In this document: positions 7,059 through 9,041 of the stretch, one piece after another
Layout: each line of letters begins with the position of its first letter
Numbering within the stretch: the first letter of the stretch is position 1
Assembly: GCF_000518885.1 (NCBI RefSeq)
Contig: NZ_JAEL01000026.1
Span: forward strand, 1 to 56,799
Direction of reading: 5' to 3'
DNA: 56,799 bases
Source: Bacillus sp. J33
GTDB taxonomy: Bacteria > Bacillota > Bacilli > Bacillales > Cytobacillaceae
Program-made: the position numbers and the translations under genes
The notes under the pieces: generated by a model
Seen by the model: the letters and a program-made list of their open reading frames with translations, nothing else
The model's database searches: none
What the model was told of the DNA's origin: nothing

Positions 7059-7478
7059 TTAAAGGTGCTTTTGGATGGCATCTGAAATTTCTTGGAGGTC
7101 TGATGCGGTATATTCTGATTGATGGGACTTCCACACTACACCTAAACCATCACCATGCCCATACCTTGGAATTAGGTGAGAATGAAAATGGAAAACTGTT
7201 TGCCCTGCAAGCTCGCCGTTATTATTAAGCAGGTTTAATCCAGCCGGATTAAACTCGGCCTTAATGGCATTTGCAATCTTGGGAACGGCTTCGAAATAGT
7301 TTCTTGCTGTTTCCGGGTCCATTTCAAACAAGTTTTCTTTATGTACTTTCGGAATGACAAGTGTATGTCCCTTAGTAACCTGGCTAATATCAAGAAATGC
7401 CATTACATGTTCGTCTTCGTATACTTTTGCTGCGGGGATATCGCCTTTAATAATCTTACAGAAAATACAATCGCTCAT
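7059..7478 (-). CDS. hit: Hit, histidine-triad nucleotide-binding protein
   Basis: 139-residue HIT-family hydrolase of nucleoside phosphoramidates or dinucleotides. The triad is HFHSHLIP with His97, His99 and His101. A zinc pair CIFC (Cys4, Cys7) stands at the N terminus and GHTLVIPK lies mid-protein. The ATG at 7478 follows TAGGAG by nine bases; an upstream in-frame start adds only MAIGVVK and has no ribosome binding site. In B. subtilis hit is divergent from ecsA, as here, but the gap to ecsA is unusually long (about 820 nt) and holds a repeated structured element. Confidence 0.95.
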   Translation of the reverse strand: MSDCIFCKIIKGDIPAAKVYEDEHVMAFLDISQVTKGHTLVIPKVHKENLFEMDPETARNYFEAVPKIANAIKAEFNPAGLNLLNNNGELAGQTVFHFHSHLIPRYGHGDGLGVVWKSHQSEYTASDLQEISDAIQKHL

Positions 7479-7520: not shown

Positions 7521-7760
7521 CCATATTCAGCAAAAAAACGATAAAGTGAAACTTTCATCTATGAGGTATTGACAATGATAGTCGGTTCAGCTCCCGAATG
7601 AAAAGAGGTTTGCGTTAGCTTTTTCTGTCACAATTTAAATTGTATAGGTGAAAGAGTGAAAGAGTGAAACAGGCGGAGACATCAGATGTTAAGGATTAGT
7701 TCCTGGGTTTTTAAGGGTGGTTGAATCCGGCTCTATGCAAGGGCAGCAGGATAGCAAATA

Positions 7761-7789
7761 AAGGCAGGATCCGCATGGAATCCTGCCTT
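7761..7789 (-). terminator. Intrinsic-terminator-like hairpin upstream of hit
   Basis: 10-bp perfect stem AAGGCAGGAT/ATCCTGCCTT with a nine-base loop; on the minus strand it is followed by TTTATTTG. It lies directly downstream (minus sense) of the tandem structured element. On the plus strand no T run follows. Confidence 0.6.
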
Positions 7790-7792
7790 CGG

Positions 7793-8176
7793 TGAAGGGG
7801 AAGCTACTTCAGGACGTTTCTACTTCAGGAAATTCTCTTTGATAAACACCTCATTTTTTAATGAAATGTGTTTAGTTATAGAGAAACTCGATCTTTGTTC
7901 AATCGGACCATCCCCTTATTTCTTTATATGCTTTCTCGGCGTATAAAGCATAGATGATAGTCTTTAACAAACACCTCATTTTAAAATGACTTAGTGACCA
8001 CTTACGGGTAAAGCGATCAAGTGTTAAAGATCAGCAGGTTTTCACATTGTTGTGCAATGCAACCATCCCCTTGTTAGGAACGTTTGAAGTTTATACTGAA
8101 AGGACACTGTCTGCGACAGACACCTCATTTCAAGTTTTAATCATTCGATGGAATCAAATGACTTGTTTCCCCTTCA
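7793..8176. ncRNA. Candidate structured RNA with three tandem units (orientation unresolved)
   Basis: No gene fits here. Three copies of a two-part motif recur: AAACACCTCATTTT at 7844 and 7969 (ACACCTCATTT at 8120), each followed by ACCATCCCCTT at 7907 and 8062 (TTTCCCCTTC at 8166). Around the first motif, arms of different sequence still pair: TTCTCT...AGAGAA in unit 1 and TCTTTAACA...TGTTAAAGA in unit 2. Each unit carries a TCATT...AATGA hairpin, and units 1 and 2 a further hairpin before the C-rich motif. The whole block is closed by an 11-bp complementarity between 7793-7803 and 8166-8176. The block could be a minus-sense leader or RNA ending at the hairpin 7761-7789, or a plus-sense leader of ecsA. 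Confidence 0.5.
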
Positions 8177-8236
8177 AAAATTAGAATGCCCTTTTTCCAT
8201 TTTTATATGTGAAGAAAATTGAAGATATTTTCAAAC

Positions 8237-8300: not shown

Positions 8301-9041
8301 ATGGCTCTATTGGAGATTAAAAATGTGACAGGCGGCTATACAAGAAACCCCGTCTTGAAGGACGTTTCCTTTGAAGTCGGGGAAAATGAAATAGTGGGCC
8401 TGATTGGTCTGAACGGAGCAGGAAAGAGCACGACCATAAAGCATGTTATTGGCTTAATGGAACCGCATGAAGGCTCGATAACCATAAATGGCAAAGAATT
8501 TCTTAAAGATAAGGAAGGCTACCGAAAACAATTTACCTTTGTACCGGAAACGCCTATCCTTTATGATGAGCTTACACTCGAAGAGCATTTAAGAATTACT
8601 GCAATGGCATACGGTGTCCCGGAAAAGGAGTATAAAAAAAGACAGGAAAAGCTTCTAAAGGAATTTCGCATGGAAAAGAGATTAAAATGGTTTCCTGCAC
8701 ATTTTTCAAAAGGGATGAAGCAGAAGGTAATGATTATGTGCGCTTTTCTGGTTCAGCCTTCTTTATATATAGTGGATGAGCCTTTTGTTGGCCTTGATCC
8801 GCTTGGCATCCAGTCGCTTCTTGACCTAATGAAAAAAATGAAAGAAAGCGGGTCAGGGATTTTAATGTCTACTCATATCCTGGCTACAGCAGAAAGGTAT
8901 TGTGACCGCTTTGTTATTTTGCATGATGGAAAAGTAAGGGCAAAAGGCACTTTGGCAGAGCTGCAGCAGCAATTTGCCATGCCGGGAGCAACTCTTGACG
9001 ATTTATATATTCAGCTCACAAAGGAAGAAGACTATGTTTGA
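8301..9041 (+). CDS. ecsA: EcsA, ABC transporter ATPase
   Basis: ATP-binding subunit of the Ecs ABC transporter, which in B. subtilis affects protein secretion, competence and regulated intramembrane proteolysis (RasP activity). 246 residues: Walker A GLNGAGKST at 36-44, a divergent signature (HFSKGMKQK in place of LSGGQ), Walker B LYIVDEPFVGLDP and H-loop STHILATAE. The ATG at 8301 begins MALLEIKNVTGGY with GGAAGG upstream; a longer in-frame reading runs over the probable promoter. It overlaps ecsB by 8 nt, so translation is likely coupled. Confidence 0.95.
   Translation: MALLEIKNVTGGYTRNPVLKDVSFEVGENEIVGLIGLNGAGKSTTIKHVIGLMEPHEGSITINGKEFLKDKEGYRKQFTFVPETPILYDELTLEEHLRITAMAYGVPEKEYKKRQEKLLKEFRMEKRLKWFPAHFSKGMKQKVMIMCAFLVQPSLYIVDEPFVGLDPLGIQSLLDLMKKMKESGSGILMSTHILATAERYCDRFVILHDGKVRAKGTLAELQQQFAMPGATLDDLYIQLTKEEDYV

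Follow-up and report, generated by a model that had tools for sequence, protein, structure and literature searches.

A predicted forespore RNA with repeated copies of a near-invariant motif between hit and ecsA of Bacillus sp. J33, a highly probable orthologue of S357/ncr1670/Bvs196

In the window, that is, the whole stretch of 56,799 nucleotides of Bacillus sp. J33 DNA analysed here, a gap of 822 bp separates the start of hit, at 7478 on the minus strand, from that of ecsA, at 8301 on the plus strand. It contains no gene of note and harbours two repeat families, one of 30 nt in three copies and the other of 26 nt in two copies. Judging from its sequence, this gap contains the gene of a non-coding RNA of about 420 nt that is read from the minus strand, in the direction from ecsA to hit, from about position 8175 to an intrinsic terminator. 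The gene is assigned to 7755..8175, with the ends inferred from a closing helix, the terminator and a promoter-like box, and all its parts are on the minus strand. A sigmaF/sigmaG-like -35 element, ACATA (8206..8210), aligned with the position of GYATA in 132 boxes from related gaps, precedes a -10 element, GGGCATTCTAA (8181..8191), which fits the pattern GGNNATNNTAW. The 5' strand of the closing helix P1, GAAGGGG (8169..8175), is followed by copy 1 of motif 1 (8110..8129), copy 1 of motif 2 (AAGGGGAUGGU; 8062..8072), copy 2 of motif 1 (7961..7980), copy 2 of motif 2 (AAGGGGAUGGU; 7907..7917) and copy 3 of motif 1 (7836..7855); the three copies of motif 1 are strict pattern matches, and motif 2 is a repeat seen in the sequence. 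The 3' strand of P1, CCCCUUC (7794..7800), which pairs with 8169..8175, comes just before the 13-pair terminator (7760..7790), whose stem is kept in the alignments of relatives.

The original prediction of a structured, repeat-bearing non-coding RNA in this gap is supported, and the coordinates that it assigned to the element, 7793-8176, match the closed RNA almost exactly, with the promoter and the terminator just outside. The conserved motif indeed recurs three times within about 300 nt without any gene of note, in the form of three strict matches to motif 1. The predicted threefold repetition of a motif pair does not hold because the second motif (ACCATCCCCTT) is present only twice, at 7907-7917 and 8062-8072. 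In minus-strand letters, motif 1 of the window reads AAUGAGGUGUYURYNRMAGA in its three copies. The strict pattern has exactly three matches in the 196 contigs of this genome (5.56 Mb), all of them in this gap and on one strand, and tolerating one mismatch adds a single further place.

On present evidence, the RNA is read from the minus strand, with a putative forespore promoter of the sigmaF/sigmaG type. The minus strand folds best (z = -5.23 vs. -3.70 for the plus strand; 100 shuffles). The GGNNATNNTAW box is found upstream of the first motif 1 in 132 of the 186 motif-bearing gaps, compared with a mean of 6 and a maximum of 13 in shuffles of the same gaps and with 3 on their reverse strand; the strict box is absent from the remaining 54. 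In its commonest form, this box is preceded, 14 bases upstream, by GYATA, a combination that we take to be a sigmaF/sigmaG promoter form; the -35 element of the window differs from GYATA at the first base, and its promoter is assigned to this type by consensus only. The exact motif core AATGRGGTGY is present upstream of hit on the hit strand in 51 of 88 genomes of the order and on the other strand in none of them (eight of these genomes were picked for a matching element and the other 80 were obtained via a Hit search); when two mismatches are tolerated, scattered matches appear on the other strand too. The closing helix does not decide the strand because its energy favours the sense RNA in 75 cases but the antisense RNA in 49 (neither in 8; 132 in total). 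Of the two readings originally offered, the one of a C-rich, LhrC-like RNA on the plus strand is not supported, given the strand of the motif core, whereas the one of a separate minus-strand RNA ahead of hit is borne out by a promoter-like box, a closing helix and a terminator of its own.

Since it occupies the same gap and the same strand as Bvs196, S357 and ncr1670, the window RNA is almost certainly the orthologue of the published small RNA known as ncr1670 or S357 in B. subtilis and as Bvs196 in B. velezensis. According to the available portions of the respective publications, Bvs196 is a 294-nt RNA from a 490-bp hinT-ecsA gap (Xu et al. 2022, PMC9147052) that is expressed in the forespore under sigmaF and mainly sigmaG, is homologous to S357, and upon deletion yields spores less resistant to heat and UV and more resistant to formaldehyde (PMC9147052); ncr1670 is a 256-nt RNA encoded between hinT and ecsA (PMC3574147) and is the same as S357 (PMC4410918); and B. 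licheniformis produces an independent transcript of 323 nt next to hit (PMC3871023). The available text of PMC9147052 gives the homologue as S357 in the Introduction and as S547 in one passage of the Discussion, the latter being the name of CsfG (PMC8216469, as far as available). As described in these sources, Bvs196/S357 shares with the window RNA the hit/hinT-ecsA gap, the hit strand, an intrinsic terminator and a sigmaF/sigmaG-type promoter. The four B. subtilis-group species in our scan (B. inaquosorum, B. tequilensis, B. nakamurai and B. paralicheniformis, which were used for this comparison) have three copies of motif 1, with one mismatch tolerated, in gaps of 496-524 nt, and homology to the RNA of this group is apparent from the common three copies of motif 1, the promoter box and the terminator. 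The window RNA differs from the reported Bvs196 in being longer (about 420 vs. 294 nt), and motif 2 was not seen in the B. subtilis-group gaps inspected.

The element had originally been described as unrecognised. This stands with respect to Rfam 15, where there is no match at the gathering score and, on loosening, only two eukaryotic families appear far below it, with E above 1; it does not stand with respect to the literature, where, as far as the available texts go, the RNA has been published as ncr1670/S357/Bvs196. Thus, the locus is known; as far as our searches show, the repetition, invariance and strand-specificity of motif 1, the spread of the RNA, its relatives at other loci and in tandem, and the switching base described below are new. 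No mention of the repeated motif was found in the available portions of the Bvs196 paper (PMC9147052) or elsewhere in the literature searched. The letters of the motif occur in 66 papers; judging by title, none of the 15 listed deals with an RNA of Bacillus.

The two ends of the RNA are predicted to pair with each other, and this closing helix shows covariation across families. Of the 132 RNAs whose promoter box was located, 109 have a closing helix that beats all 40 shuffles of the tail. Its pairs change on both sides, with G-C in 86 and A-U in 43 RNAs at one position and U-A in 74 and C-G in 17 at the outermost pair, counts that lean towards standard pairs given that the duplex was chosen by energy. 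The 5' strand prefers its own tail over the tails of RNAs with a different 5' strand in 91% of comparisons; among the 14 group representatives subjected to this test, two beat merely 4 and 7 of the 13 foreign tails. The genuine covariation accordingly sits in a helix (8175-8169/7800-7794) that the original prediction did not name. The stem arms that were named, as well as the TCATT/AATGA arms, are present in the sequence, but the covariation-like signal claimed for the former came from comparing units within one sequence, and the unit-3 stem has no pair with both sides changed in an alignment of 21 sequences. RNAalifold was run on two alignments; both sides are changed in 0 of 32 pairs in one and in 2 of 47 in the other. 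Motif 1 is predicted to form a hairpin with a 5-nt loop (70 RNAs, 236 units), with a mean pairing of 0.82-0.88 in the 5' stem and 0.36-0.63 in the loop. This hairpin stays a prediction because the motif columns show no covariation beyond that in shuffles; the top signal, between columns -2 and 11, does not have the character of a base pair and is probably due to the unit type.

Motif 1 has the consensus AAUGRGGUGUYURYNRMAGA, in which AAUG-R-GGUG is close to invariant across 459 unique units, and is present in 1 to 10 copies per gap (184 gaps, with one mismatch tolerated, identical gaps counted once and near-identical ones unmerged). The loop at positions 13-17 comes in a few classes (GUUAA, AUCAA, GUCAA, GUCGC and others), the last two places being AA or GC in most units, and G is nearly absent (0-3% of the same 459 units) from positions -9 to -6 upstream of the motif. 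The R position of the core is A in all copies in 160 of the 174 gaps with at least two copies, G in all copies in 6 and mixed in 8. Within one family (f17), locus L102 has AATGGGG in all three units and locus L107 has AATGAGG in all three. One base of motif 1 can change in concert across all the copies that a genome carries. A small peptide starting within the motif (AUG AGG UGU...) was considered and rejected because the loop type GUGAA, found in 17 of 564 units, places a UGA stop at codon 5.

The element is present in all 36 same-genus genomes searched (including that of J33) and in the single other genome of the family in this search, which altogether produced matches, some of them short, in 45 of 61 genomes. 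The 51 genomes of the order with the motif core upstream of hit come from 29 of the 47 families sampled. Where a divergent ecsA is present, the core is found in none of the 15 gaps shorter than 400 bp and in 47 of the 57 longer ones. Beyond the order, the strict motif was detected in 16 of 398 genomes drawn from the class, all 16 among the 38 that belong to the order and none among the 360 sampled from other orders; a control with the backwards motif gave one match in all 398 genomes. SigG is above the cut-off in 79 of 80 genomes, many of which lack the RNA at hit-ecsA, so that the RNA is not a general requirement for sporulation; in the sole genome without SigG above the cut-off, the RNA is missing from hit-ecsA as well. 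With 79 of 80 genomes above the cut-off, SigG co-occurrence was uninformative as an explanation of the losses and was set aside.

A scan for motif 1 yielded at least 120 stretches. Among the matches listed, 109 have the motif upstream of hit. The remaining 11 comprise four that adjoin ecsA, with hit outside the stretch, five at other loci, and two single matches in Bacteroidota that are apparently due to chance. Related RNAs away from hit were found at seven inspected loci (L151, L186, L191, L251, L282, L283 and L288, of which L191 and L288 coincide). They combine a motif-2-like stretch with motif 1 and, as judged by eye, have a promoter-like box, ends that pair as GCAAG/CUUGC and a hairpin resembling a terminator; in three of the genomes with such an RNA (G145, G116 and G076), the hit-ecsA gap lacks motif 1. 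At both L191 and L282, the RNA is divergent from a gene that encodes a 54-aa protein and is followed by a DUF3813 gene; the 54-aa protein at L282 has no Pfam match. In several genomes, more than one RNA gene, each with its own boxes, is arranged in tandem: three in Gottfriedia L224, and two in Gottfriedia L202 and L213, in G058 (L041) and in Peribacillus L160 and L170. One Priestia genome, of Priestia aryabhattai, carries motif 1 on two contigs; one of them (L194, 1417-1692) has a second RNA, with four copies of motif 1, in a stretch that contains no hit gene, and a csp-like cold-shock gene is upstream of this RNA. Given that the same modules recur at other loci and in tandem RNA genes, the position beside hit is not needed.

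A single motif that recurs in many copies amid varying surroundings, together with the forespore promoter and the concerted changes, suggests that motif 1 has a single trans-acting partner. In the mechanism that we favour, the RNA would be made in the forespore from the minus strand via the sigmaF/sigmaG-type promoter, each motif 1 would be a putative binding site, such that one RNA could grip several copies of the partner, and the RNA would titrate or scaffold this partner in the forespore. As a whole, the explanation that combines an orthologous forespore RNA with a multivalent binder of a trans partner through motif 1 appears somewhat more probable than not; on its own, the multivalent-binder part stands at about an even chance. 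The partner would more likely be an RNA-binding protein than an antisense RNA because the RNA partners tested found no support. As an antisense of CsfG, motif 1 is equalled by 287 of 300 shuffles, and against the tail of 16S rRNA, with what we presume to be its sequence, by 25 of 300; motif 2 against CsfG is equalled by 128 of 300. Nor did the one genome pair compared, that of L102 and L107, share a conserved trans RNA whose 10-nt complement to motif 1 tracks the A/G switch: in blastn, 7 non-RNA loci from G052 showed no similarity to the 17 from G097 (two further G097 matches without a locus were left out).

The most serious competitor, which is the model published for Bvs196, is a classical antisense small RNA with sporulation mRNAs, for example spo0A and sspN-tlp, as pairing targets; motif 1 would then be either part of the fold or a shared seed. 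This possibility, which we consider rather unlikely, draws on the available descriptions of in vitro binding by Bvs196, with a Kd of 3.57 uM for spo0A, and of altered target mRNA levels (PMC9147052), as well as on a modest, 2.77-fold enrichment of ncr1670 with Hfq (PMC3574147, as far as available); yet a seed leaves up to ten near-identical copies per gap unexplained, and the failure to find either a conserved complement in the genome pair or complementarity to CsfG speaks against it as well. The strong overall fold, the covarying closing helix and the predicted motif-1 hairpin with its conserved classes of 5-nt loops would also fit an RNA that is itself a structured particle, with motif 1 as an internal architectural element, either a recurrent hairpin that packs onto another region of this RNA or a means of holding RNA copies together. 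A fixed architecture would not easily allow a copy number from 1 to 10 and variable spacing, however, and no receptor was found, so that this reading appears quite improbable.

Two further possibilities carry very little weight. That the gap encodes a multicopy plus-strand RNA akin to Listeria LhrC is suggested by the C-rich appearance of the motifs when read on the plus strand, but the promoter box is on the minus strand, the plus-strand fold is weaker, the motif core is confined to one strand and, in the available part of PMC3871023, the B. licheniformis transcript beside hit has descending coordinates, all of which makes this reading highly implausible. Even less credence can be given to a long 5' leader of hit: the RNA is transcribed towards hit, but the terminator precedes that gene, a TATGATAAAAT box that by eye resembles a -10 element follows the terminator in several relatives, related RNAs exist away from hit, and the band of Bvs196 is about 300 nt in the accessible text of PMC9147052.

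Returning to the multivalent binder, it is conceivable, at clearly less than even probability, that S357/Bvs196 is one representative of a broader class of forespore RNAs with motif 1 as the active part, each serving as a multivalent sink or scaffold for a single conserved RNA-binding protein of the forespore, in a CsrB-like way of working. If so, this class would span different loci, 1 to 10 copies of the motif and sometimes tandem genes in spore-forming Firmicutes; its motif would be new, and probably its protein as well. Post-transcriptional control inside the forespore is poorly understood, and both CsfG and S357/Bvs196 are without an agreed mechanism; a near-invariant, multi-copy motif turns the question of RNA function into the testable one of what binds motif 1, with the A/G switch, the tandem genes and the copies at other loci as natural variants for such tests. 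The RNA family could also be proposed to Rfam.

Among the known systems, LhrC of Listeria, a multicopy small RNA with C-rich motifs, resembles the window RNA in its repeated copies and, if the wrong strand is read, in its C-rich look; the window RNA is read from the opposite strand and has a promoter of the sporulation type, and plus-strand transcription of C-rich motifs is disfavoured by the fold, the promoter and the strand of the motif core. CsfG (the ylbH element, RF00516) is likewise a published forespore small RNA under sigmaF/sigmaG that is conserved in spore formers, but it has a different locus and different, C-rich motifs without complementarity to motif 1. RF00516 has no match in the window, and CsfG is found separately in the same genome, on another contig (L268, 2282-2400). 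Rfam files CsfG as the 'ylbH leader', that is, the strand opposite to the RNA shown to be made. In CsrB and RsmZ, repeated GGA in hairpin loops binds CsrA. The conserved part of motif 1 lacks GGA, and for this reason membership in the CsrB group is not proposed; the window RNA further differs from these RNAs in its putative forespore promoter. The likeness to CsrB/RsmZ-type titrating RNAs is one of proposed working, namely, a single short motif whose copy number varies between species.
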